Assembly: GCA_001898485.1 (NCBI GenBank)
Contig: MKTY01000020.1
Span: 1-64,000, forward strand
Direction: 5' to 3'
DNA length: 64,000 nucleotides
Source of the DNA: Sphingobacteriales bacterium 46-32
GTDB lineage: Bacteria > Bacteroidota > Bacteroidia > Chitinophagales > Chitinophagaceae
Position 1 is the first letter of the stretch. Every line of letters starts with the position of its first letter. Positions 1,479 to 15,114 of this stretch are shown in pieces. The translations under genes and the position numbers were made by a program. Under the pieces are notes generated by a model, which was not told where the DNA came from, searched no databases, and was given only the letters and a program-made list of their open reading frames with translations.

Positions 1479-2198
1479 TTAGCTCATCAACTTATTTTTC
1501 ATTCTTTCCATGAAAGCATCCTTGTAGTTTGCACCAATCGGTATCCGTTTCGGAAGCTTTTTAAGTATGAGTTCGTTATTTTCCATAGAAGAAATTTGCT
1601 TCAATGCCACGATATACGATTTATGGACCCTCATAAACTGGCTGTTTGGCAATCGCTCCTCCAACTCCTTCATCGTTAGGTAAGCAAGTGTTTTTTGTTG
1701 TCCCCGGTGAAAGGCGACATAGTTGTTCATTCCTTCCACAAAATCTATGTCATCCAAATCAATTTTTAACATCTTTCCTCTCTGCCCAGCCTTTACGAAT
1801 ATATAATCATTTGGAATGGCTTCTGGATTTGAGCAGGGCTGATGCGCCACCGCATCGGTAACACGTTGCACCGCTTTAACAAACCGATTAAATTCAATTG
1901 GCTTCATTAAATAGTCAATGGCATCAAGCTCATAACTGGTAACTGCAAATTCAGAATATGCTGTGCAAAAGACCACATTCGTACTATCTCCTAAAATTTT
2001 CATTACTTCAATTCCGTTCATTTCATCCATCTGAATGTCCAGAAAAACGACATCGGGCTTTTCTTTCTTCACAATTTCAATTCCCAATAGCGGATTAGTT
2101 TCTGCGGCAATCAATTCCAGGTTAGGCAACCGATCAATATACTTTTTAAGCACATTAATCGCTGGCTGCTCATCATCAATTATTACGCACCTTATCAT
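1479..2198 (-). CDS. LytTR-type response regulator
   Basis: The 239-residue protein has an N-terminal receiver domain with an acidic pair at residues 8-9, phospho-acceptor Asp54 in F-L-D-I-Q-M, and Pro/Lys near the end of the domain. From about 135 to 235 it has a LytTR DNA-binding domain, including the F-V-K-A-G and R-V-H-K-S-Y motifs. It starts 3 bp after the stop of the sensor kinase gene, so the pair is co-transcribed and cognate. LytTR regulators often control extracellular products and peptide-responsive genes. The position downstream of a small peptide and its putative modifying enzyme suggests it could control that locus, which is an inference. Confidence 0.92.
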   Translation of the reverse strand: MIRCVIIDDEQPAINVLKKYIDRLPNLELIAAETNPLLGIEIVKKEKPDVVFLDIQMDEMNGIEVMKILGDSTNVVFCTAYSEFAVTSYELDAIDYLMKPIEFNRFVKAVQRVTDAVAHQPCSNPEAIPNDYIFVKAGQRGKMLKIDLDDIDFVEGMNNYVAFHRGQQKTLAYLTMKELEERLPNSQFMRVHKSYIVALKQISSMENNELILKKLPKRIPIGANYKDAFMERMKNKLMS

Positions 2199-2201
2199 AG
2201 G

Positions 2202-3293
2202 TTAAGTGTTTACAGTAAGTTCAAACGTATAAAACTCTTCTCCATCGTCAGCCTTCATTTCATATTTCCCTTTGAAAGCAACGTCCAGTCTTTTGGATAG
2301 GTTAGTGATGCCTATATTGTGGGAAGACAATTCAAAATTGTTTTTCTTCTTTTTATTCCGGCAGTAAAAATAAACTTGTCCAGGATGAAGCGACACCCTG
2401 ATCTTTAAAGGATGTTCCGGGTCTTTTAGGTCGCCATATTTGAAAGCATTCTCTACAACTGTGATCATGGACAGAGGCGGAATCATTTGGTCTTTTATGA
2501 CACCTTCTACTGCAAAATCAATCACCTTAGAATGTCCGAAACGGATATTATTTATTTCAATTAATAGTTGCAAGTTGTCCAATTCCTTTTGCACAAATAC
2601 CTTATCGCTTTCATATTCCACACTCTCCATTGAGTAACGCATGATCCGGGAAAGCTTTGAAATATTATCAGCTAACTCCTGAGAATATTCCATAGCCTGC
2701 GAAAATAGTACGTTTAGTGTATTGTGCAGGAAATGGGGATTAACCTGTGAACGTAAAAAAGCATATTCTAAAAGAAGTTTGTCTTTTTGTAATTCCAGTT
2801 CCTGTTGCTTTAATATTGAATTTTCTAATTCGTTTCGTAGCTTTTCTTCCTGAAGTCTCCTGAGTTCTCTTTCCTTTTTAAAAGATTGCACAACGTAGAA
2901 GTATAGCATTGCATAAGAGAAGTATTGAACATATCCCAGAACTGCCCCTTTCAAAAAATCTCTAAAATTATCTGAGGTGTATAATTTAATGCCGGCAAGA
3001 GGTAATAGAAGATAGATGTAGCAATAGCCGATAAGCCCCATTACAAAAAATACAATAAAGAAAGAAGCTATGCTCCATAAAACACCAATTCTTCTGTAAA
3101 GATTAAGGCAATAGATGCTTACATAAAATGTAAGACAAAATGGAAGAAGGAAAAGAATGGTGTTAATTATTTTGATATTGGGGTTAGCCAGATAATTAGC
3201 TATGTATATAAAGCTGCCGTACACAACCCATGCAGAGGCATGTACTAAAATTTGAAAGGGCGTTTTGTTCTCCCCTGGAAGAAGTGATGCCAT
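2202..3293 (-). CDS. LytS/YehU-type membrane sensor histidine kinase
   Basis: The 363-residue kinase begins with about four hydrophobic segments (roughly residues 15-35, 42-65, 70-100 and 115-137), then a coiled coil (138-180) and a His_kinase domain. The phospho-acceptor is in P-H-F-L-H-N, His187. The C-terminal ATPase domain shows V-E-N-A-F-K-Y-G as N box and an N-I-G-I-T-N-L G box. No periplasmic sensor domain is present, so the signal is probably sensed in or at the membrane. It is followed directly by the LytTR regulator and preceded, 44 bp away, by the acyltransferase gene. LytS-LytTR pairs are common in Bacteroidota, so its partnership with the peptide is plausible but unproven. Confidence 0.92.
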   Translation of the reverse strand: MASLLPGENKTPFQILVHASAWVVYGSFIYIANYLANPNIKIINTILFLLPFCLTFYVSIYCLNLYRRIGVLWSIASFFIVFFVMGLIGYCYIYLLLPLAGIKLYTSDNFRDFLKGAVLGYVQYFSYAMLYFYVVQSFKKERELRRLQEEKLRNELENSILKQQELELQKDKLLLEYAFLRSQVNPHFLHNTLNVLFSQAMEYSQELADNISKLSRIMRYSMESVEYESDKVFVQKELDNLQLLIEINNIRFGHSKVIDFAVEGVIKDQMIPPLSMITVVENAFKYGDLKDPEHPLKIRVSLHPGQVYFYCRNKKKKNNFELSSHNIGITNLSKRLDVAFKGKYEMKADDGEEFYTFELTVNT

Positions 3294-3337
3294 GTTTTTG
3301 CAGGTTTTGGTCAGATTGGAACAGCGAAAGCCGCAGT

Positions 3338-4474
3338 TTACAGGTACACTAAAACACCCTGTTCGTAAAGCTGATGGAACACGTTATTTTCAAAACATTC
3401 CCTTCTTACAGGATGCTCAATACATCCGGTCAACAGATCATACAGCTTGCCATCAACTTCGTAAAATGAATAAGTGTTTTTCTTCAATAAAAAAGGAATA
3501 TTATGCAATTTAAAAATACCAAATAGCTGCGAATTGAAGCTAATTTTTTCAGTGGGGATTAAAGAATGATTAGAATTGAATGACTGAATTTTGGAGTTTA
3601 CAATATTAGCAACTTTATGAATATATAGCCAGCCTTCCCATTGCTCTGGATATGATCTTATGATTGGAGCAATAAGGTCATAAATTCGCTGGGTGGTCTC
3701 AATGGCAAATTTCTCCCTATCTTTACTTTTATCGGGGTAAATAGGATCAAAGAACCGAAGCCGGATCTCATCCCAGGATTTGCGGTAAGAAGCGACTGTT
3801 AGAATTGGCACATTGGAGACATGGGCAAGAAATGAAATTCCTTTTCTGGCGAATATTTGCTGATGAAGGAAGTTAACACTGCAATTATTTTCGTTTTCTG
3901 TAGTGGTGGTCCCGGCGCCGCTATTTCCATCAATATATAACACAAGTGTTTTCCCCTGCTTTAGTTCCCGTAGCATTTGTACACCTGCTTTGGCATTTTC
4001 TGCATTAATTATTTTAAGATTATTTCCATCTACATTACCTGGAAGATCGTTAAACAATGAGGAAAACAATTCTCCCTCCTTTTCCGTAATGTCTTTTCCT
4101 ATTACTAAGGTGAATGGAATTTTGTATTTAGCAAGCAAAAGATTTATCACCCGATAAGAACCGGTGTGAAAGGTGCAGATAATGGTCGGCTTAGTTTTTA
4201 GTAGGCCAATAATTTCATCATCGAAATTTTCTACTTCAATGAAGTCAAGAATTTGATAGGAACTTTGTTCAAGAATGCTTAGTTTTTTATGCAGCAGAAT
4301 CTTTTTGTAAATATCCTTATGCGAGGAACAATGAATTTCTGGAATAAAGTTGGAAAGTGATGCACTTACCATGTTAAACTGGCCATTCAGAGGTTGATTA
4401 TCATCAAAACTAAACTTCGTTTCAAAATCATTTATAAGAGAGTTTCTGGATTCTATATATTCGGAGCGGTTCAT
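3338..4474 (-). CDS. LpxL-like acyltransferase with PqqD/RRE-like C-terminal domain
   Basis: Residues 90-290 of this 378-residue protein resemble lysophospholipid/lipid A acyltransferases: a strand then F-H-T-G-S-Y (His103), a Y-I-D-G-N segment near 180, and a terminal P-E-Q-W-E-G-W motif at 276-282. The family normally has His-x4-Asp/Glu; here the fifth position after His103 is Arg108, so the catalytic acid is missing or displaced. Residues 315-378 look unlike LpxL and more like a PqqD/RiPP-recognition winged helix: a beta hairpin with Y-S-F-Y-E-V-D-G at 335-342, then helices ending in L-Y-E-Q-G-V-L. No N-terminal membrane anchor is obvious. It lies 130 bp downstream of a 50-residue peptide gene. 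I infer acylation of that peptide; an ordinary membrane-lipid acyltransferase is the alternative. Confidence 0.65.
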   Translation of the reverse strand: MNRSEYIESRNSLINDFETKFSFDDNQPLNGQFNMVSASLSNFIPEIHCSSHKDIYKKILLHKKLSILEQSSYQILDFIEVENFDDEIIGLLKTKPTIICTFHTGSYRVINLLLAKYKIPFTLVIGKDITEKEGELFSSLFNDLPGNVDGNNLKIINAENAKAGVQMLRELKQGKTLVLYIDGNSGAGTTTTENENNCSVNFLHQQIFARKGISFLAHVSNVPILTVASYRKSWDEIRLRFFDPIYPDKSKDREKFAIETTQRIYDLIAPIIRSYPEQWEGWLYIHKVANIVNSKIQSFNSNHSLIPTEKISFNSQLFGIFKLHNIPFLLKKNTYSFYEVDGKLYDLLTGCIEHPVRRECFENNVFHQLYEQGVLVYL

Positions 4475-4552
4475 ATTGTACTTTTTTTGAAAAGGCTTAT
4501 TGTAGCCCGTTTTTTAATTCAGAAAGATTCCGGGGCGGTGAAAGCCACTAAT

Positions 4553-4580
4553 AAAAAAGGAATCCGGTTTACAGATTCCT
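4553..4580 (-). terminator. Intrinsic terminator between peptide and acyltransferase genes
   Basis: On the minus-strand RNA, AGGAATC and GATTCCT pair around a 9-nt loop and are followed by a run of U. The hairpin begins 24 bp after the stop codon of the 50-residue peptide gene and lies about 80 bp before the acyltransferase start. Such a leaky terminator is typical of loci where a small precursor is made in excess over its modifying enzyme. Confidence 0.65.
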
Positions 4581-4604
4581 GAAATGGTGCAAAGCGAAGA
4601 AGAC

Positions 4605-4757
4605 TTATCTTCCTGTACCTGGTGGCAGCGGCGGCTGCGTATCTATACAGCAGCTATCAGTAAAAAATGAAACTACACTTGCCCATACATTTTTAAATCT
4701 TGCTTCAAGTTCCTCGATGCTTAAAGGCTTTGAAAACACATTTTCAGTTGTCACCAT
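4605..4757 (-). CDS. Candidate RiPP precursor peptide (50 aa)
   Basis: The minus-strand ATG at 4755-4757 opens a 50-codon frame ending at TAA 4605-4607. The N-terminal half looks like a RiPP leader: a helix-forming stretch around P-L-S-I-E-E-L-E-A-R (residues 11-20), then an amphipathic segment with Trp25 and F-F at 31-32. The C-terminal half is a compact possible core: D-S-C-C at 34-37, then I-D-T-Q and a Pro-rich P-P-L-P-P-G-T-G-R tail (42-50). It has no signal peptide or double-Gly leader. It is followed by its own terminator and by an acyltransferase with an RRE-like tail, then by a LytS-LytTR pair. I do not recognise a named family; the precursor role is inferred. Confidence 0.62.
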   Translation of the reverse strand: MVTTENVFSKPLSIEELEARFKNVWASVVSFFTDSCCIDTQPPLPPGTGR

Positions 4758-4935
4758 GATGTTAGGTTTTAAGTTGGTTAATGGCCGCTTTCACGCAGCA
4801 CTGTTATTTACTACCCAAACATCACGTTAGTAAAGCCCGTGTAAAAACCCGTTACGTGAACTCTCGATTAGCTTATGTAAAATGGAGTATAGCCGCTGTA
4901 TTATATTTTTAGTTTTCTTATATTGCTTGCTAATA

Positions 4936-5421
4936 ATGAACCCTGATGTAAGATTTGATATTGACCGGAAAAAATTTCCCACTGCGATGTACAGCCGGGA
5001 GCTTCTTGGCCATTTGAAAAAATATGCTGAGCCTGCTGCTAAAGATTTTTTCGTAATCGAGGGAACTTTTGGTTGCATATTCCGGCAGGAATTACCGAAA
5101 GGCGGTGAATATTTAATCCATGTTCATGATTTTTTGCTTACACAGGAGTTACAGCTATTTCTTGAAGCAAAAGAACCTGTAGTGTTTGTGCTTATGACGA
5201 TGCAGGGAAGAATTACTATTGATGTACCCAGAGCAGGTTTACAGACTATTGAAGCAAATCAATACAATATTTTTCATTTCACCCCGTGCAAGACAGCAAT
5301 CAGTTGTTACAAAGGAAACTCCAGAATATTTTGCTTATGTATGACGCCTGATACTTTTAAAAGGCAGGCTACTGACCTGGCATTTTTTACAAGCTCTATG
5401 CAAAAGGCCAAGTTGAATTAA
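4936..5421 (+). CDS. Stand-alone AraC-type sensor domain without HTH
   Basis: The 161-residue protein (from ATG 4936; an upstream ATG at 4882 would add 18 hydrophobic residues) resembles the N-terminal sensing half of the AraC regulator at 14119-15114. Shared features are a beta-rich core with successive short strands, an A-N-x-Y-N-I-F motif (around 110-117), and a following C-L-x-M/L-P strand. The frame stops where the linker and the two-HTH domain should begin, with no trace of HTH coding before the next gene. It is therefore a naturally short sensor or an AraC gene truncated long ago. It is divergent from the peptide cassette. Bacteroidota use many such N-terminal domains to sense small ligands; the ligand here is unknown. 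Confidence 0.55.
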   Translation: MNPDVRFDIDRKKFPTAMYSRELLGHLKKYAEPAAKDFFVIEGTFGCIFRQELPKGGEYLIHVHDFLLTQELQLFLEAKEPVVFVLMTMQGRITIDVPRAGLQTIEANQYNIFHFTPCKTAISCYKGNSRIFCLCMTPDTFKRQATDLAFFTSSMQKAKLN

Positions 5422-5691: not shown

Positions 5692-6090
5692 ATGATAAGA
5701 GTTCTTGCAATATGCAAAAGCAATATCTTTTTAAATGGTATAAAATCTACCTTATTATCTTCCGGTATTGAAATGGTCTCAATGTGCAATGATAGTTCCG
5801 AAGGCGTTACTTGCTATAAAAAGATAAAACCCCATATAGTTATCGCAGATGCCAATTGGACAAACAAAATTTACGCAATTCCCGGTACAAAGTTAATACA
5901 ACAACTTATTGCTTATGATCCTGCAGCTAAAATAATTATTGCCACAAACATTTATGAACCGGATGTGGTAGAAGAAATGAAACAATTAAAAATTAGAGGC
6001 TACTTTTATCGGAGCATGAATAATATACTGAGTGAAATCGTTAATTGCATAAGAGATGTCTATGAAGGGAAAGAGTGCTTTGCCGATTGA
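5692..6090 (+). CDS. Receiver-only protein with degenerate acidic pocket
   Basis: The 132-residue protein has a CheY-like fold similar to the receiver half of NarL-type regulators: alternating strands and helices, Asp53 in I-A-D-A-N-W as potential phospho-acceptor, and G-Y-F-Y-R-S where the conserved Lys is normally found. The N-terminal acidic pair is absent (I-C at residues 7-8) and the Lys is replaced by Arg, so it is probably a pseudo-receiver that signals by binding rather than by phosphorylation. There is no output domain. It is a single-gene transcript with its own promoter box, next to the peptide cassette and the AraC-like sensor. Partners are unknown. Confidence 0.7.
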   Translation: MIRVLAICKSNIFLNGIKSTLLSSGIEMVSMCNDSSEGVTCYKKIKPHIVIADANWTNKIYAIPGTKLIQQLIAYDPAAKIIIATNIYEPDVVEEMKQLKIRGYFYRSMNNILSEIVNCIRDVYEGKECFAD

Positions 6091-7103: not shown

Positions 7104-8357
7104 ATGAAAAAAAGCCTTTTTTTCATAAAGGGTATTTTATGGCCCGTACTATATGCTTTTGCGCAGTCCCCACCGGAGAGCATTATGCCTCTCGCTGTCG
7201 GGGATTATGTACCAGATATAACTTTCAAAAACGTCACGAACTATAAATCATCTACAGCGAGATTATCTGACTTTAAAGGAAAATTAATCCTTCTTGATTT
7301 CTGGAGTAGCTGGTGCGGTTCCTGCCTTAGTCTGTTTCCTCACCTGGATTCATTACAACGAAAATTCAAAGACGAGTTGCAAATTATTCTCGTGAATACA
7401 AAAAGCCGAATATCAAAGGACGATGAAACGAAGATTACAAAAATTCTTGATCGTATAAGAAGCAGAACCGATAGCGAACTGAATATTCCTGTGGTGTATG
7501 ACTGTGAAAAGCTGGATGAATATTTTCCCTGCACAATCATTCCGCACGAAGTATGGATTGACAAGAACGGAAAGATAGCCGGTATTACGGATGCTGCCGA
7601 GGTAAATGCCGATAACATACAGGCATTGATAAACGGCAGAAAGGTGAAACTGAAACTCAAGAAAGACCTCCCTGACTTTGACCCTGCGAAGCCTTTATTT
7701 ATAAACGGCAACGGCGGCGACGGCAGTGAAATACTCTGCCGGTCTTTGGTAAGTTCAGCCATTGATGGAGTGAGCGGCGCAACCGGCATACGGCGAAGCG
7801 CAGATAAAGTAACCGGCTTCTACAGTATCAATCAATCGCTGTTGTCACTTACAAGAACGGCTTACAACAAAGAAATTCCCTATGAAAACAATCGGGTTTT
7901 TGTCAGCAATAAAGCGAAGTTCAATAAGGTTTACTGCTACGAATTGATTTTATACGATACAACCGTTGAGGCCATGTTCGGCTTTTTGAAAGACGATCTC
8001 AAAAGGTATTTCAATATATCGGTAAAAAAGGAAAAAAGAAAAATGCGTTGCCTTGTGCTGAAAGCAGCCCTCCCTGCAAAGAATACTGCTGCCGACAGGC
8101 TCCCTGATTTAGATATTGAAGAAGCCAGTTTGCGCAAACACATTTACAATTATCCTCCTTCTTTTGTGGCAAACCTGTTAAATGATTATAGCGCAATCCC
8201 GATCATAGATGAAACCAATTTTTCTAAAAATATCTCCATTGATCTTCCTTTCTCTTTGACTGATATAGCCGGATTGCAAGCTGCTTTTAAAAAAATTGGC
8301 TTTGAACTGAAAGAAGAGAATAGAGAACTGGAAGTGATTCTTATCAAGGACAATTAA
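7104..8357 (+). CDS. TlpA-like exported thioredoxin (redoxin) protein
   Basis: The 417-residue protein has an N-terminal signal sequence (about 1-20) and a redoxin domain (about 30-170). It has a W-C-G-S-C active site, Cys71 and Cys74, a preceding L-L-D-F-W strand and a G-K-I-A-G segment near 150. The remaining 240 residues have no motif I know; the end (about 375-417) resembles a small STN-like fold. Periplasmic thiol-disulfide proteins of this type often precede SusC/SusD genes in Bacteroidota. Its leader ends in AACTGCA just before ATG, as does that of the following SusC gene 53 bp downstream, suggesting a common transcript. Substrate unknown. Confidence 0.8.
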   Translation: MKKSLFFIKGILWPVLYAFAQSPPESIMPLAVGDYVPDITFKNVTNYKSSTARLSDFKGKLILLDFWSSWCGSCLSLFPHLDSLQRKFKDELQIILVNTKSRISKDDETKITKILDRIRSRTDSELNIPVVYDCEKLDEYFPCTIIPHEVWIDKNGKIAGITDAAEVNADNIQALINGRKVKLKLKKDLPDFDPAKPLFINGNGGDGSEILCRSLVSSAIDGVSGATGIRRSADKVTGFYSINQSLLSLTRTAYNKEIPYENNRVFVSNKAKFNKVYCYELILYDTTVEAMFGFLKDDLKRYFNISVKKEKRKMRCLVLKAALPAKNTAADRLPDLDIEEASLRKHIYNYPPSFVANLLNDYSAIPIIDETNFSKNISIDLPFSLTDIAGLQAAFKKIGFELKEENRELEVILIKDN

Positions 8358-8409
8358 AACACTCCCCAAATCTCTTTCACCATTTATTTACTTATAAAAC
8401 TTAACTGCA

Positions 8410-11400
8410 ATGAGAAAAACAAAATACTTCTTACTAATGATACTGCTGATTGCGTATCAGTTAAACCTGCAAGCTCAAAACGAAACAGTTGTTACCGGCA
8501 AAACAATAGATGCCGACACAAAGCAAGAAATAGCCGGTGTGACCATAAGCAGCAAGAGATTTGAGACGGTCAGTAATAGCGACGGCACGTTTAAAATCTC
8601 TGTACAAGCCGGTAATGATACACTCACACTCACACATACAGGTTACCAGCCAAATCGTATTCCTGTAGACAATAATCTTTCTTTCCTTGTCATTGAACTT
8701 AGCAAAAAAGAAAATGTGTTAGGCGAAGTAACAGTTAGTACAGGTCTCCAGCAAATACCGAGAGAAAGGGCTACCGGGTCATTCGATCTTATTGACAACA
8801 AGACACTAAACTTTCAGACAGGCAGTAACATACTTGATCGGTTGAATGGAATTGCCAGCGGAGTTTTGTTTGACAATACGAAGATAAAATCCGGCAATAA
8901 AAAATATGGTTTCTCTATCAGGGGATTAAGCACCATCAACGGCTTGCAGGACCCTTTAATTATCGTTGACAATTTTCCGTATGAAGGTGATATTAATAAT
9001 ATCAATCCCAACGATATTGAATCCATCAGCCTCCTTAAAGATGCTGCGGCAGCTTCGATATGGGGAACAAGGGCAGGCAATGGCGTGATAGTGATAACTA
9101 CAAAAAAGGGAAGGTTTAATCAGCCGTTAAAAATTGAATTAAATACAAACGTGATAGTTGTCGCAAAGCCTGATTTGTATTCACTGCCTCAGATTAGCTC
9201 AACCGATTATATAGATGTCGAGCAATTTTTATACAATAAAGGGGCATTCGGTTCATTAATCAATGATCCTTCACAAACTGCTTTATCACCCGCCCTGGAA
9301 ATTTTTATTAAACGTGCAGGCGGGCAAATATCTGCTGCTGATTCTGCATCTGCCATCAATGCAATTAAAAGTATTGATGCCCGTGCCGATTATCTGAAGT
9401 ATGTGTATCAGGCGGCAGTTACCCAGATTTATTCACTTAATGTTCGGGGAGGGAGTGGCAATATGACCTATTTCATTTCCGGCGGTTATGACAAAGGTAT
9501 TGGGCATCTAAATGAAAAATCTGACAGGGCTACTTTGCGTCTTGAAAACACCTACAAGCCACTGCAAAACCTGCAATTGTCTTTGAGCGTTATTTATACC
9601 AGCACAATTTCTAAAAGCGGAAAAACTGGATATAACGAGAGTGGAATAAAAATAGGGAACCGCTTTGTACCATATATCAGCTTAGCTGATAAAAATGGCA
9701 ATCAGCTGCCAGTGGCATCCAACTACAGGGATGGTTACACGGACACGGCAGGAAGCGGAAAGCTTCTTAATTGGAAGTATTACCCATTGGAAGATTACAA
9801 ACACAATACTACTAAAAGCAATGGGCAATCTTTTGTTGCGAGGTTTGGATTGCAGTATCAGCTTATAAAAGAACTCAGTGTGGATATAAAATATCAATAC
9901 GAAAGAGATCAACTGTCCTCACGCAACTTAGCCGATATTGAGAGTTATAGTACAAGGAACATGATTAACCTTTTCAGTCAGATAGATCAAAGCACAGGTC
10001 TTGTTTCATACGCCGTACCCTATGGGAGCATTTTGAACCGCTCCGGCAGCTTACTAAAGGCGCATAATGTGCGGGGGCAGCTAAATTTTACCAAAGTATT
10101 AAATGAACATAGCATTAACGCTATCGCAGGGACAGAACTCCGGGAAACCCGTAGTGAAACAGATGCTAATACTATTTATGGATATAGTGATGACCTGCTT
10201 ACCACAGCGACCGTAGATTTTTTGCATGAGCATCCAACATATATTAACGGGTCTTATGGTTTTATTCCTGATGGTATTGACTTATCGGAGAGGTATAACC
10301 GGTTTGTTTCATTATTTGCCAACGCTGCCTATACCTATAAAAATAAATATACGTTGTCAGGAAGTTTGAGAAGGGATGCGTCCAATCTTTTTGGTGTAAA
10401 CACTAATGATAAATGGAAACCTTTCTGGTCTGCCGGAATAGCATGGGATATTGTCAAAGAAGGCTTTTACAAATCTTCTCTTTTTCCCTATTTAAGATTA
10501 AGAGCGACTTACGGTGCAAGCGGAAATGTAGATCAGTCCAAATCAGCCGTAACTGTAATAACGTACATGGGTACGTTTTCTTATACAAATTTTCCTTATG
10601 CACGGGTAAGTCAGTTCTCCAACCCCGATCTAAGATGGGAAAAAGTTAATACCCTGAATTTTGGAATTGATTTTTCCTTAAAAAAGCAAATTGTTTCGGG
10701 GAGTATCGAATATTACCGGAAAAACGGAACAGATTTATTTGGGCCTTCTCCCATAGACTATACGGCTGGAACAATGAGCAATATCCTTACTCAGAATATT
10801 GCCAATATGAAATCAAATGGAGTGGAAATTTCGCTGCAATCTAAAAATATTGATCGGGCTATTAAATGGTTCACGACGCTGCTGTTCAGTTATAATCTGA
10901 GTAAGACGACAGCCTATTATGCAGCGGAAGGTCAGAAATTCAGGCCCGGCTATGGCCGAGATATTTCACCTATAGTTGGAAAGCCCCTTTACTCCATTCT
11001 CAGCTACAGGTGGGGAGGATTAGACCCTGCCACAGGAAATCCCAGGGGCTACTTAAATAAAGACCTAAGCACCAATTACCTCGCCATCTTCAATTCGATA
11101 ACAAGCCCTGATAGTCTGGTTTACAGCGGACCCGCAACTCCGAAATATTTTGGCTCCATTATTAATACGGTTAACTGGAAAGGGTTTTCAATAACGGCAT
11201 CCATATCCTATAAGCTCGGCTATTACTTTCGGAGATCATCTATTGACTACGGCAATCTCTTTTCTAATGGTATTGGTCATCCGGATTTTTCGAAAAGATG
11301 GAAGCAGCCGGGAGATGAACAGTTTACTAATATTCCTTCGATGTCATATCCTGCCAATTCAAGAAGAAATCAGTTTTATCTGCTTTCGGAAGCCACCGTT

Positions 11401-11619
11401 TCTAAAGGAGATCATGTGCGCCTCCAGTTTATAAATCTTGCTTACGATTTTGCAAGCGACAAAAAAGCAGGAAATTTCTTCACATCCCTACAGCTATATT
11501 TTAATGCCAGCAATCTGGGTCTTCTATGGAAAGCAAATAAGGAAGGGATTGACCCTGATTTTCCATCTTCCATTCCTTCTTCCAAAACGTATGCAGTTGG
11601 CATCAGAACTACTTTCTAA
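8410..11619 (+). CDS. SusC/RagA-family TonB-linked outer membrane protein
   Basis: The 1069-residue protein has a signal peptide (1-22), a carboxypeptidase-regulatory-like beta-sandwich domain (about 28-95), a TonB plug with the family motifs (S-I-R-G-L-S-T near 177, D-P-L-I-I-V-D-N, N-D-I-E-S-I-S-L-L-K-D-A-A-A near 205, G-V-I-V-I-T-T-K-K-G) and a long beta barrel ending in Phe. It imports an oligomeric ligand (glycan or peptide) through the outer membrane with the SusD lipoprotein encoded 18 bp downstream, powered by TonB-ExbBD. No glycoside hydrolase is linked, so a sugar substrate is not indicated; the redoxin neighbour hints at another type of cargo. Confidence 0.95.
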   Translation: MRKTKYFLLMILLIAYQLNLQAQNETVVTGKTIDADTKQEIAGVTISSKRFETVSNSDGTFKISVQAGNDTLTLTHTGYQPNRIPVDNNLSFLVIELSKKENVLGEVTVSTGLQQIPRERATGSFDLIDNKTLNFQTGSNILDRLNGIASGVLFDNTKIKSGNKKYGFSIRGLSTINGLQDPLIIVDNFPYEGDINNINPNDIESISLLKDAAAASIWGTRAGNGVIVITTKKGRFNQPLKIELNTNVIVVAKPDLYSLPQISSTDYIDVEQFLYNKGAFGSLINDPSQTALSPALEIFIKRAGGQISAADSASAINAIKSIDARADYLKYVYQAAVTQIYSLNVRGGSGNMTYFISGGYDKGIGHLNEKSDRATLRLENTYKPLQNLQLSLSVIYTSTISKSGKTGYNESGIKIGNRFVPYISLADKNGNQLPVASNYRDGYTDTAGSGKLLNWKYYPLEDYKHNTTKSNGQSFVARFGLQYQLIKELSVDIKYQYERDQLSSRNLADIESYSTRNMINLFSQIDQSTGLVSYAVPYGSILNRSGSLLKAHNVRGQLNFTKVLNEHSINAIAGTELRETRSETDANTIYGYSDDLLTTATVDFLHEHPTYINGSYGFIPDGIDLSERYNRFVSLFANAAYTYKNKYTLSGSLRRDASNLFGVNTNDKWKPFWSAGIAWDIVKEGFYKSSLFPYLRLRATYGASGNVDQSKSAVTVITYMGTFSYTNFPYARVSQFSNPDLRWEKVNTLNFGIDFSLKKQIVSGSIEYYRKNGTDLFGPSPIDYTAGTMSNILTQNIANMKSNGVEISLQSKNIDRAIKWFTTLLFSYNLSKTTAYYAAEGQKFRPGYGRDISPIVGKPLYSILSYRWGGLDPATGNPRGYLNKDLSTNYLAIFNSITSPDSLVYSGPATPKYFGSIINTVNWKGFSITASISYKLGYYFRRSSIDYGNLFSNGIGHPDFSKRWKQPGDEQFTNIPSMSYPANSRRNQFYLLSEATVSKGDHVRLQFINLAYDFASDKKAGNFFTSLQLYFNASNLGLLWKANKEGIDPDFPSSIPSSKTYAVGIRTTF

Positions 11620-11637
11620 AAAATAAAATTGTATAAA

Positions 11638-12999
11638 ATGAAACATACTTATAAAATATTGGTTTTTGTCATGTTGGTTCTTGTCTTCCTTATGCCCTCG
11701 TGTAAAAAGTATTTGGATAAGAAGCCGGATAAAGCGTTACAAGTTCCAAACTCACTTAGCGATTTACAGGCACTGTTGGATGATGGATATTTATTAAATG
11801 GGACAAATGGAGTATCTTTTGATGAGGCTTCGGCGGACGATTATTATGTTCCGGATGACTTATATAACGATCTCTCAGTTAATAATCGCAATGCTTACTT
11901 GTGGCGGAACACGGATTATACAAACTACCCTAATGACTGGGGTTACATATACAACGTGGTAAACATTGCCAATATAGTTTTGGACAATGTTCAAGAAATA
12001 GCAATAACGGCATTGAATAAAAATGAATGGAATAATATAAAAGGATCGGCATTGTTCCATAGGTCATTTGCATTCCTTCAGGGAGCGTCTATATTTTGTA
12101 AGGCTTATGACGATAATACCTCGGCACAAGACTATGGCTTAGTTTTAAGGCTCACTTCTGACATAACCTTGCCATCCGTTCGAGCGAGTGTAAAAGATAC
12201 CTACAACAGGATAATTGAAGATCTGAAGTCTGCCGTCCCTTTATTGCCTGATTTACCTGTGCATGTTTTACGTCCTTCTAAGAACTCAGCCTATGCGTTA
12301 CTGGCAAGGACTTATTTATCTATGCGTAAATACGATAGCTGCGCAAAATATGCTAACCTGTCTTTATTGATCAAAAGTGAATTAATAAACTATAATGCCG
12401 TTGACGTCACAGCCTTTGTGCCTTTTGAACGCTTCAACGCTGAGGTGCAATTTTACAATATAATCAACCAGCCCAATTACGCAAGCATTGATCCCTATTA
12501 TGCACGAGTAGATTCCTTGTTGTATAGCAGCTATGCCAGCGATGATTTAAGAAAGGAAGCGTTCTTCTATCAATCATTTCCTGGCTATACTTTTAAAGGC
12601 AGTTATAGCCCTTACCAACTCTTTACGGGCATTGCAACCGATGAAGTGTACCTGATGAGGGCAGAAAGTTATGCAAGGTTGGGTGATAAAGATGCAGCCC
12701 TCTCTGATCTGAATACTCTCCTTGTGAAAAGATGGAGGACAGGTACTTTTGTTCCTGTGGCCGCCTCAACTGCCAATGAAGCGTTAGGTATTATTTTAAT
12801 AGAACGAAGAAAGCAACTGCTTTTTAGAAACCTTCGCTGGATGGACATTAAAAGGCTAAATAAAGAGGGAGCCAATATAGTTCTTAAAAGAATAATAAGC
12901 GGAGAAACGTATCTGCTACAGCCCAATGACAATAAATATGCGCTTTCACTACCTGCTGATATTATTAATATGACAGGTATGCAACAGAATCCCTATTGA
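11638..12999 (+). CDS. SusD/RagB-family surface lipoprotein
   Basis: Translation from ATG 11638 gives 453 residues (a TTG three codons upstream is less likely). The signal peptide ends in a lipobox L-M-P-S-C with Cys22. TPR-like helices follow, and the typical SusD C-terminal segment with E-V-Y-L-M-R-A-E (about 345) and R-R-K-Q-L-L-F-R-N-L-R-W-M-D-I-K-R (about 395). SusD proteins cap the SusC barrel and bind the ligand. The protein is at the short end of the family, which often has 480-600 residues. A strong hairpin terminator follows 24 bp after the stop. Confidence 0.93.
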   Translation: MKHTYKILVFVMLVLVFLMPSCKKYLDKKPDKALQVPNSLSDLQALLDDGYLLNGTNGVSFDEASADDYYVPDDLYNDLSVNNRNAYLWRNTDYTNYPNDWGYIYNVVNIANIVLDNVQEIAITALNKNEWNNIKGSALFHRSFAFLQGASIFCKAYDDNTSAQDYGLVLRLTSDITLPSVRASVKDTYNRIIEDLKSAVPLLPDLPVHVLRPSKNSAYALLARTYLSMRKYDSCAKYANLSLLIKSELINYNAVDVTAFVPFERFNAEVQFYNIINQPNYASIDPYYARVDSLLYSSYASDDLRKEAFFYQSFPGYTFKGSYSPYQLFTGIATDEVYLMRAESYARLGDKDAALSDLNTLLVKRWRTGTFVPVAASTANEALGIILIERRKQLLFRNLRWMDIKRLNKEGANIVLKRIISGETYLLQPNDNKYALSLPADIINMTGMQQNPY

Positions 13000-13023
13000 T
13001 TATTGCCATAGTGCAAGGATATT

Positions 13024-13056
13024 AAAAGAGGCTGCCGAAACCCGGCAGCCTCTTTT
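13024..13056. terminator. Bidirectional terminator between SusD and DUF6520 genes
   Basis: A perfect 14-bp stem (13024-13037 with 13043-13056; GC-rich core GAGGCTGCCG) with a 5-nt loop has A- and T-runs at its ends. It separates the plus-strand SusD gene from the convergent minus-strand small protein gene and should work in both directions. Confidence 0.85.
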
Positions 13057-13068
13057 CGTGGTTTGTAC

Positions 13069-13407
13069 TTAATTTCTATTTGCGACACTGGCATTTGCAC
13101 CACTTACGGTAGGAAGCCCACTACCGTCCAAAGGAACAGAAGTCGGATGGCCGGAGGAATTTGTAGTGTTGATGATTTTACATCCTTTTACACTACCAGA
13201 CGGACAACTGAAAGCATTGTAATCATTTAATGTTGACAGTTGCTGCCATTTGTTCATATCATTTTCTTCTCCGGCAGCACCGGTAAATTTATAATAGTAG
13301 TCGGTGAAATTACCGGACTGTTTACTGTTTTGAGAAGGGGCTTTGGTAAAGGCAACTGCTGTAAAGGCAATTGCTACGGCAATAATGCCAAAAAAATATC
13401 TTTTCAT
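13069..13407 (-). CDS. DUF6520-like small exported protein
   Basis: I start this 112-residue protein at M-K-R-Y-F-F-G (ATG ending at 13407), because the upstream 20 codons lack secretory character. A signal peptide (about 1-22, ending in A-F-T-K-A) is followed by a Tyr-rich Y-Y-Y-K-F motif, one Cys pair in a C-P-S-G-S-V-K-G-C segment, and a Gly/Ser-rich tail. The layout matches the small DUF6520-type proteins often found beside MauE-like and AraC genes in Bacteroidota. Function is unknown; the two cysteines could form a disulfide made by the adjacent MauE/redoxin system. Confidence 0.65.
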   Translation of the reverse strand: MKRYFFGIIAVAIAFTAVAFTKAPSQNSKQSGNFTDYYYKFTGAAGEENDMNKWQQLSTLNDYNAFSCPSGSVKGCKIINTTNSSGHPTSVPLDGSGLPTVSGANASVANRN

Positions 13408-13510
13408 AAAAAATGTTTTGGTTATATAGTTATTGATTCTTCGTTTGATACCACTTAACGCTGTCAAATGGATCGGATTGTTTGGTGATAATTATGTTCC
13501 CTTTCGGGAA

Positions 13511-13951
13511 CTATGTAGGGGCTTCTCCTCTAATCCTCATTATGAAACGCCGTCTTGCCAATATGATTCCTGTGCCAGATAGTATAACAAAAAATAAATT
13601 AAATAAAACGTGCTGTGGCCAGGTAAGGTCTTTCAATACGCCTCCGCAGCTACAAGGTAGATTTGGTGTGAACAGAATCATGTAGATGAGGTACGCAGTA
13701 AGGATTATTAATAACAGCAATGAGGCATACAGTCCTTTGATGCGTAAGGCAGGAATAAAAAGCAATATTACAATCACGAGTTCCAAAAAAGGTAAAGCCC
13801 ATGCTATGAAACCTGCGAATGGTTTTAATAAAGGAGAGACAGACAATACTTCTTTAAAACTCCGATACTCAATAAACTTGCTGATTGCTGTGTAAAGCAG
13901 AAGGAGCAAGAGGATTGCACTGATAATATCTATAACGGCTGTTCTTTTCAT
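13511..13951 (-). CDS. MauE/DoxX-like four-helix membrane protein
   Basis: From ATG 13951 (the TTG two codons upstream is unlikely) the 146-residue protein has four hydrophobic helices (about 6-25, 45-67, 72-92, 112-132) and the P-C-S-C-G-G motif before the last helix that typifies methylamine-utilisation MauE relatives. These proteins pass electrons or support disulfide formation across the membrane. It is encoded between the DUF6520 protein and the AraC regulator, all on the minus strand, and may serve the redoxin or the Cys-containing DUF6520 protein. Confidence 0.82.
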   Translation of the reverse strand: MKRTAVIDIISAILLLLLLYTAISKFIEYRSFKEVLSVSPLLKPFAGFIAWALPFLELVIVILLFIPALRIKGLYASLLLLIILTAYLIYMILFTPNLPCSCGGVLKDLTWPQHVLFNLFFVILSGTGIILARRRFIMRIRGEAPT

Positions 13952-14118
13952 CGTCAAAAAACTTTTGGTCTGTTCGCTGATTAAAGATCAGCAACATTAT
14001 CAGGATGGAAATTGTCATTTTAGGGCATTTTTAGTTGTCAATTTAGGGAATGGTGATTATCGGAAGTAAAAGATTAAGACAATCCACTTATAACAATAGT
14101 AAAAGAGAAGTGGTCTTT

Positions 14119-15114
14119 TCATTTTTTCTTTTTGCTATGCTGACCACCAGGGGAAATACCATATTTCTTTTTAAATCTTCTTATAAAATTTGCTGTATCG
14201 GAAAACCCTATCACTTGGGTAACTTCAAATACTGGCAGCTTTTTATCATTTAATAATCGCCTCGCCCATTCTAATCTTTCATCGTTAATAAACTGCGGAA
14301 CAGTTTTGCCTGTAAGACTTTTGAACTGTTTTGTAAGTGTCTTTGGAGAAATATGGAAATCGGATGCGAGTTGATTTAAACCGCCGAGTTTTGCGTCTCC
14401 GAGATTGGACAAAATATATTCTCTCACTGCAAAAGATTTTTCCCTGGCGGATAAATATATTCTGGATGCCGGGCTTCCAAGTTTATATTGCTCGTTATAT
14501 AATGCCAATATTTCAAGAATGTATTGCCGCAAAGCAAAATCCAATGCAGCTCCTTTCTTATGCAGTCGCTCCATTCTTTTTAATATCCTCCAAACACTAT
14601 GAGGCAAAGGAAAACTCGTAAGCAATGTGCCGCTTTCAACTCTTTTGGATAAGCGAGTAACTATTTCCTGCATTTGTGAATGCTCGTCAGCCATCCCCTT
14701 CAGGAAATTCTTAGGCAAAACAATATAGAGCAATGTGTAATCTTCAATGCGCAGGCTCACTTTATGAGTTCCGGTTGGTAAATAAAAAATATTGTAAGTA
14801 TTTGCCAGCGTATTGACCTTGCCATGCCCTGAAAGATGGCCGACCAGGTTGCCTTTCAAAAATAATGCTATGCAAATTGATGGTTCATTTACAGCTATAT
14901 CTAAATACCCTTCCTTTTTGACCAAAAATGTCCAAAGCTCTATCCAATAATCATCTCCGCTAATAGATTGTATTATAAAATCGCCCAGGTCACATCTTGT
15001 GCGGTTACATTCAGCAAAGGAAATGCTGTATTTAAATTCAGCAGGACAGGTATGAGTGATCTGTAAATTCTTACATAGTTCCGGAGGGAAGTGAATTTTC
15101 AAGGGTGACAGCAT
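14119..15114 (-). CDS. AraC-family transcriptional regulator
   Basis: The 331-residue regulator has a beta-rich N-terminal sensing domain (about 1-150; motif A-N-T-Y-N-I-F-Y-L-P), a linker, and a C-terminal AraC DNA-binding domain (about 225-325). Its two HTH motifs are L-N-Q-L-A-S-D-F-H-I-S-P-K-T-L and the signature F-S-D-T-A-N-F-I-R-R-F-K-K-K-Y-G-I-S-P. The tail is basic. Upstream of its start are two 23-bp direct repeats 42 bp apart, a possible autoregulatory site. Likely targets are the adjacent MauE/DUF6520 genes or the SusCD operon. Confidence 0.9.
   Translation of the reverse strand: MLSPLKIHFPPELCKNLQITHTCPAEFKYSISFAECNRTRCDLGDFIIQSISGDDYWIELWTFLVKKEGYLDIAVNEPSICIALFLKGNLVGHLSGHGKVNTLANTYNIFYLPTGTHKVSLRIEDYTLLYIVLPKNFLKGMADEHSQMQEIVTRLSKRVESGTLLTSFPLPHSVWRILKRMERLHKKGAALDFALRQYILEILALYNEQYKLGSPASRIYLSAREKSFAVREYILSNLGDAKLGGLNQLASDFHISPKTLTKQFKSLTGKTVPQFINDERLEWARRLLNDKKLPVFEVTQVIGFSDTANFIRRFKKKYGISPGGQHSKKKK

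Follow-up and report, generated by a model that had tools for sequence, protein, structure and literature searches.

Organisation of the locus

The window analysed in this study is a stretch of 64,000 nucleotides from Sphingobacteriales bacterium 46-32, a member of the Chitinophagaceae (contig MKTY01000020.1, positions 1 to 64,000). At 1479-4757 it carries four open reading frames on the minus strand, which encode a short peptide, an acyltransferase, a histidine kinase and a LytTR regulator and are separated by gaps of 130, 44 and 3 bp. This is the layout given by an earlier interpretation made from the DNA letters without database searches (hereafter the sequence-only reading). The four genes are likely to form an autoregulated signalling cassette built on a ribosomally synthesised and post-translationally modified peptide (RiPP), which is probably lipidated. 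The features assigned to the locus are listed below, with the basis of each assignment in brackets.

4605-4757, minus strand: precursor peptide, 50 amino acids (open reading frame, alignments, coding selection)
3338-4474, minus strand: acyltransferase of predicted LpxM/PatA fold with a putative RiPP recognition element (RRE), 378 amino acids (Pfam, structure model, fold matches, invariant residues)
3341-3550, minus strand: putative C-terminal RRE domain of the acyltransferase, residues 309-378 (predicted fold)
2202-3293, minus strand: LytS-type histidine kinase, 363 amino acids (Pfam, comparison of the kinases of the genome)
1479-2198, minus strand: response regulator with receiver and LytTR domains, 239 amino acids (Pfam, conserved gene order)
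4553-4580, minus strand: intrinsic terminator or attenuator in the gap between the peptide and enzyme genes (hairpin and T-run)
4844-4882, minus strand: predicted LytTR double box (de novo motif in 15 cassettes)
4816-4823, minus strand: putative -7 element GATGTTTG (TTTG at fixed spacing from the proximal repeat)

The four genes constitute a real unit beyond a chance meeting of neighbours, because a paralogous set exists, the peptides are under purifying selection and all matches to a peptide query adjoin the enzyme. The second four-gene set lies on contig C12 of the same genome, with identities of 39% for the peptide, 46% for the acyltransferase, 53-54% for the kinase and 55% for the regulator. 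When seven other genomes of the family were laid out, kinase and regulator were found after the acyltransferase in five of them (L014-L018), with unrelated flanks, and one (L019) contained a distant acyltransferase homologue without kinase and regulator. A scan of a collection of named genomes for relatives of the enzyme returned 49 loci. Fifteen of these (L022-L036, 37-60% identity) resemble the window cassette in gene order: a kinase follows the acyltransferase in 14 and a LytTR regulator in 13, the exceptions being L024, which stops at a contig end, and L030, where the kinase is present and the regulator was not found. The same four-gene order, for which the sequence-only reading had proposed a search, thus recurs elsewhere in the Bacteroidota, and the conserved unit comprises these four genes, while the flanks change between loci. 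The distribution of the enzyme is patchy, with matches at E <= 1e-10, some of them distant, in 18 of 394 genomes of the family and 6 of 395 genomes of the phylum. The L020 match was a wrong open reading frame. A match in G031 (E 1e-4, residues 28-117) lies in an open reading frame that reads by eye as a glycosyltransferase and was discarded.

The precursor peptide

The 50-residue peptide is strongly supported as a RiPP precursor with a helical leader bearing xSIEELExRF and a short Cys-containing core. It is short, combines a conserved leader with a variable core and is encoded beside a putative maturase, as judged from alignments, profile, selection and gene position. In the window peptide the leader motif SIEELEARF is encoded by codons 4695-4721, the core is CCIDTQPPLPPGTGR, and the Cys-Cys pair occupies codons 4647-4652. 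No Pfam or NCBIfam family matched the peptide at E<=1. Coding selection is indicated by pN (nonsynonymous differences) falling below pS (synonymous differences) in all nine orthologue pairs examined, and a peptide-only query of 298 order-level genomes retrieved three peptides in two genomes, each adjoining this enzyme.

Across the cassette peptides the N-terminal half is conserved, roughly as IFxxxxSIxxLExRF, and the C-terminal half is variable. A Cys is found in the variable half of all 16 cassette peptides. The Ser-Cys-Cys end described in the sequence-only reading holds for the window peptide, which is one of seven of the 16 with CC, the rest having a single Cys. This set excludes L017 and L034, whose peptides lie upstream of an M50 gene; L023, with the same peptide as L022, was left out of the peptide profile and of the motif search described below.

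Precursor-like peptides also occur at more distant loci. When the profile of 15 peptides was compared with 3,682 small open reading frames of such loci, peptides with the leader motif occupied 16 of the 17 best rows, at weak E-values of 0.03 to 0.66 and with six of the 16 being identical copies from L042. These precursors bear motifs of the ELExRLE type, such as SIVELEERLEMAAAERCSNRCNG in L039, and mostly lie upstream of M50, arginase or acyltransferase genes. The L042 copies, in Pedobacter sp. PAMC26386 (L042:9353-10631, minus strand), are six identical tandem peptides (DILELEARLETVQIGDAASGSIRCDSESALEN) upstream of an M50 gene. Most of the loci examined in relatives from Runella, Larkinella and Spirosoma have a different peptide (MKKxFxIK..., with C or CC), which stops 4-15 nt short of the enzyme; L048 yielded none, and the L046 peptide overlaps the enzyme start as annotated here. 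The peptides of L060, L064 and L068 (Olivibacter, Parapedobacter) end five residues after the Cys, as CDFVVP, CGFTPL and CDVVFP, endings that we take to resemble AgrD cores. These three loci encode a shortened enzyme tail and, downstream, a kinase and a LytTR regulator.

The acyltransferase and its C-terminal domain

The sequence-only reading had called the second gene product LpxL-like, and this was borne out at the level of the predicted fold. The Pfam family Lip_A_acyltrans matched at E 4e-5, barely above the cut-off, and a model built from a 43-row alignment (A4) had a mean predicted local distance difference test score (pLDDT) of 90.7. Residues 27-334 superpose on Acinetobacter LpxM (5kn7) with Z 21.2 and a root-mean-square deviation (rmsd) of 3.5 over 247 residues, and residues 31-293 on PatA with Z 21.1 and rmsd 3.0 over 234 residues; PlsC came next at Z 9.3. 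Searched by sequence against solved structures, the enzyme alignment retrieved PatA alone, at E 0.38-0.40. Eight residues (H103, G105, D182, G183, G212, W279, E280 and W282) are invariant in all 43 homologues, H103 being encoded at 4166-4168. Alignment A4 comprises 39 of the 49 named loci together with the window, its paralogue, L017 and L019; L023, L044, L045, L048, L049, L051, L056, L058, L059 and L065 were left out as near-identical or fragmentary, and the distant G006/L019 sequence (25-27%) served as an outgroup row only, both here and in the tail alignment.

HX4(D/E) is the catalytic motif of the lipid A acyltransferases, and the title of structure 5knk calls E127 catalytic. Since this motif is incomplete in the present enzyme, though H103 is there, the model places the protein as a fold relative of the lipid A acyltransferases and not as a member of the LpxL/LpxM enzymes. 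Its highest 19-residue hydropathy mean is 1.18, so that a membrane helix is not expected.

On its predicted fold, the tail of the enzyme is an RRE of three strands and three helices, for which leader binding is predicted. In the full model, residues 309-378 matched the RRE of TbiB1 with its leader (Z 6.8, rmsd 2.7, 69 residues), ThcOx (Z 6.6) and MccB (Z 6.0). Predicted alone, the domain had a pLDDT of 91.7 and aligned with TbiB1 at Z 6.6-6.7 over 66-69 residues (rmsd 2.5-2.7). Its best matches were for the most part RREs. Foldseek likewise ranked TbiB1 with its leader first for the isolated domain; among the next 20 matches were a sactipeptide maturase, ThcOx, McbB, SuiB and one lasso B1 protein, the E-values starting at 0.047. 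A second fold comparison placed LanB-type, TbiB1, ThcOx, MccB and PqqD (5.7) domains at Z 5 to 7, a range shared by winged-helix domains of JmjC oxygenases and by carbamoyltransferases. Of the PqqD/RRE-like tail proposed in the sequence-only reading, the winged-helix RRE therefore stands as a predicted fold and the PqqD profile does not: no Pfam PqqD match was obtained for 43 full-length or 38 tail sequences, nor was PF05402 found at the locus in its own genome, and consequently the assignment rests on fold plus context. The tail alignment (A5) retained 38 of the 43 rows, after removal of L060, L064, L068 and L069 (tails under 55 residues) and of L070.

The kinase, the regulator and the promoter

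The LytS-type kinase and LytTR regulator of the sequence-only reading were both recovered by Pfam (His_kinase 2e-17; Response_reg 8e-19 and LytTR 2e-22). The hydrophobic N-terminal part of the kinase gave good matches to cassette kinases only. Within the genome, the full-length match of the window kinase (54%) is the kinase of the paralogous cassette, and the best of the other matches reaches 40% over residues 153-360.

A Gibbs-type de novo search covering the 200-nt region upstream of each of 15 peptide genes gave one motif in all 15, TTTnACATA-12 bp-TTTnACGTAA, with a total score of 474 as against 292-298 in six mononucleotide shuffles; k-mer counting in the upstream regions gave values hardly higher than those of shuffles. 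The window repeats are TTTACATAA (4873-4881) and, after 12 bp, TTCACGTAA (4852-4860), followed by a T-run near the -33 position. Allowing at most three mismatches, the double box is the sole match in the 64-kb window, where 0.01 are expected, and the site itself has one mismatch. TTTG, which we take to be a Bacteroidota-type -7 element, follows the proximal repeat at exactly 32 nt in 14 of the 15 cassettes, L031 having TTTA. LytTR regulators such as HdrR are described in a passage of PMC6193735 as binding 9-12-9 bp direct repeats (ACCTCTTAG-12 bp-ACCACTTAA) that lie directly 5' of the -35 element. The 9-12-9 bp repeat at a fixed promoter distance is thus a well-supported predicted binding site, and the cassette regulator presumably acts on 4844-4882. 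The position of the box upstream of the peptide gene makes autoinduction likely.

The peptide gene also has its own terminator, as the sequence-only reading noted: between peptide and enzyme genes, at 4553-4580, lies the terminator-like hairpin AGGAATCTG-TAAAC-CGGATTCCT followed by TTTTTATTA. Fifteen of the 16 cassettes have a hairpin with T-run at this place (a raw count without shuffle baseline), L032 lacking it and L025 having a weak hairpin. A terminator in this position implies that the precursor is probably made in excess.

Neighbourhoods of the enzyme relatives

Of the 49 loci, 12 have an M50 protease of the daptide/epipeptide kind within 4.5 kb of the enzyme, five an arginase-family protein and two an ATP-grasp protein of the grasp-with-spasm kind, one of these also with SPASM (raw counts). 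These RiPP-type neighbours may be taken as the best evidence from gene context that the enzyme modifies a peptide. Downstream of the L063 enzyme are genes for a beta-ketoacyl synthase (E 1e-77) and for an acyl carrier protein (E 4e-12), with a dehydratase and an ABC transporter read by eye after them; the acyl-supply genes of this locus are the best such evidence suggesting that the modification is an acylation.

Pairs of histidine kinase and LytTR regulator lie downstream in 17 of the 49 loci, or 18 if the Pfam LytTR match in L068 is counted. A membrane LytTR protein and a LuxR-type regulator lie upstream of the enzyme in 17 of the 49, and the LytTR proteins of L038 and L039 are arranged differently. 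The 17 membrane proteins, from L043-L062 (Runella, Larkinella and Spirosoma), have a hydrophobic N-terminus and a terminal LytTR domain and stand beside a LuxR-type response regulator, an arrangement that resembles the LRS-like one of Bacteroides.

Proposed mechanism and alternative explanations

In the mechanism proposed for the cassette, the cytosolic enzyme would use the RRE at its C-terminus to bind the leader and would fatty-acylate the core, with the conserved Cys as the most likely acceptor and a nearby Ser or Thr as a possible one, while the attenuating terminator would yield more precursor mRNA than enzyme mRNA. The mature, leader-cleaved lipopeptide would leave the cytoplasm by means outside the cassette and be sensed in or at the membrane by the hydrophobic N-terminus of the LytS-type kinase, after which the LytTR regulator would bind 4844-4882 and raise transcription of the peptide gene. 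Acylation of the peptide by the enzyme and sensing of the product by the kinase are steps that we infer, as did the sequence-only reading, whose interpretation as a whole is partly supported. That reading had named as contrary signs relatives of the enzyme without a small peptide, a C-terminus without a winged helix and a peptide lacking conservation; the relatives do have a small peptide, the C-terminus is predicted to be winged-helix and the peptide is conserved.

Several observations weigh against a lipidated signalling cassette. The acid position of HX4(D/E) is Arg108, invariant in seven close homologues and conserved in at least 90% of the 43, so that catalysis would differ from that of LpxM or be absent. 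Every RRE match has Z < 8, and the tail is short or missing in L060, L064, L068 and L069. The cores of the L017, L034 and cyanobacterial L070 peptides contain no Cys. LytS-type kinases are common in the genome (26 matches), which makes neighbourhood alone a weak proof. A genome-wide search with the box pattern at 3 mismatches gave one true match and five with the reversed control; the credibility of the box therefore comes from where it lies and how it is conserved, and its sequence alone would not suffice. Neither a leader protease nor an exporter was recognised in the window cassette, and the M50 protease of the Filimonas-type locus L017 had no match at E <= 0.001 in five of six genomes searched, this one included.

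Alternatively, the product may be a lipopeptide bacteriocin or toxin against competitors, with the two-component system as a production switch as in nisin-type autoinduction; RiPP machinery and lipidation are typical of antimicrobials, and the clusters of relatives hold arginase, M50 protease and graspetide enzymes. We consider this rather unlikely, given that neither an immunity gene nor an ABC exporter was recognised in the conserved four-gene unit and that the kinase accompanies every Chitinophagaceae-type locus uncut by a contig end. A cassette without exporter or leader protease, together with a hydrophobic kinase N-terminus, would also suit a cell-autonomous monitor, in which the acylated peptide, tethered by its acyl chain, stays in the membrane of the producer and keeps the kinase informed of acyl-ACP (acyl carrier protein) supply or of the state of the membrane, without signalling between cells. 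Such a role seems quite improbable, as a conserved leader with a variable core is more usual for secreted products and the arginase and protease neighbours of relatives would be left unexplained.

The Arg in place of the acid, and the AgrD-like endings noted above for L060, L064 and L068, would fit a fold put to another use, either a different reaction such as a Cys thioester or thiolactone as in agr, or a non-catalytic role as leader-binding partner. The invariance of H103, G105, D182 and G183 in all 43 homologues and the beta-ketoacyl synthase and acyl carrier protein encoded beside the L063 enzyme speak against it, and we would give it little credence. That the genes are mere neighbours, with a lipid acyltransferase, a spurious small open reading frame and an ordinary two-component system, could draw on the Pfam score of the enzyme, so close to the cut-off; the conserved gene order, coding signature and leader motif and the presence of RRE, terminator and LytTR box speak strongly against this, and it is scarcely tenable.

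More tentatively than for the signalling cassette as such, the locus could represent a new class of lipidated RiPP pheromone, in which a leader-guided enzyme of LpxM/PatA fold and atypical active site attaches an S- or O-linked acyl group to a Cys/Thr core and the resulting lipopeptide sets off autoinduction through LytS and LytTR. The family would then be a widespread, unrecognised RiPP lipidation module across the Bacteroidota, with one cyanobacterial example, since sister lineages pair the same enzyme with arginase, M50 protease or graspetide enzymes.

Comparison with known systems

The closest parallel in gene order is agr of the Bacillota, where one operon likewise combines peptide, modifying enzyme, membrane kinase and LytTR regulator, with LytTR-type direct repeats upstream of the peptide promoter. 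AgrB of agr is a membrane protease, whereas the second gene here encodes a soluble-looking protein of LpxM/PatA fold with a predicted RRE. The cassette further differs in belonging to Gram-negative Bacteroidota, in having the peptide gene first and in the terminator after it. The agr parallel drawn in the sequence-only reading thus holds for the LytTR regulator and the 9-12-9 bp repeats at the peptide promoter and fails for AgrB, which was not matched, as for any protease or exporter in the cassette; the locus may work like agr and is not a member of it, because an LpxM/PatA-fold protein stands in place of AgrB.

Selidamides, lipolanthines and goadvionins share with the proposed pathway a RiPP precursor acylated by a dedicated acyltransferase, and the combination of peptide arginase and acyltransferase near relatives of the enzyme follows selidamide logic. 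Selidamide acyltransferases are described in a passage of PMC9505594 as GNAT-type enzymes acylating Orn or Lys; here the predicted fold is that of LpxM/PatA, the core has Cys and the window cassette is without arginase. The diacylglycerol (DAG) RiPPs of ChrH/DybH-type clusters are also lipidated RiPPs of the Bacteroidota and, according to an excerpt of PMC12636315, are made through the lipoprotein pathway (Lgt, LspA, Lnt), with a lipobox, in contrast to 4605-4757, where no lipobox-like signal peptide was seen by eye. LpxL/LpxM and mycobacterial PatA have the fold in common with the present enzyme, which differs in the lack of a strongly hydrophobic helix and of the HX4 acid and in the extra RRE. 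M50 proteases related to the daptide MpaP / LiaK-type metalloproteases adjoin the enzyme in relatives and are absent from the window cassette; a portion of PMC10036551 reports that RRE-dependent intramembrane proteases cleave daptide leaders.

RiPPs, lipidated RiPPs and peptide signalling through LytTR regulators are known already. Searches of an open-licence library (most subscription journals and the domain list of PMC12710340 lying outside it) turned up no description of an LpxL/LpxM-type acyltransferase acting on a RiPP or of such a cassette, in agreement with the sequence-only reading. RRE-Finder, as an extract of that source states, retrieves 1,158 Pfam domains with RREs (PMC12710340).

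The surrounding region

The two cassettes of the genome each mark the left end of a roughly 33-kb region that occurs in both places and is largely collinear between them (1479-34665 and G000:C12:15133-48600), with protein identities of 30-91% (L004, L021, L120). It encodes a receiver-only protein, a TlpA-like protein, SusC/SusD and an AraC-type regulator and a series of other genes, among them, by eye, amidase-like proteins and an ATPase, and is possibly a duplicated integrative element. At 7104-15114, within about 9 kb of the window cassette, lies a SusC/SusD cluster that includes a MauE-like protein, together with TlpA, DUF6520-like and AraC genes. It is partly present near the paralogue and lies within 6 kb in L027, L028, L060 and L068; a functional link to the cassette is possible. 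Divergent from each cassette is a gene for a receiver-like protein without output domain (5692-6090 and L004:8540-8935, both plus strand, 39% identical), which could act as a phosphate sink for the kinase. Another divergent open reading frame (4882-5421, plus strand) reads by eye as the N-terminal half of an AraC-type regulator, and its listed start touches the LytTR box at 4844-4882.

Significance

The unit is small, with four genes, a 50-residue substrate and a defined promoter box, and is thus directly testable in E. coli. If the proposal is true, it would add a new lipidation enzyme to RiPP chemistry and a new kind of lipid-tagged bacterial peptide. Textbook cases of peptide quorum sensing via membrane kinases are mainly Gram-positive; a self-contained counterpart in the Bacteroidota that signals with a fatty-acylated ribosomal peptide would mean that this large phylum gains a peptide language.

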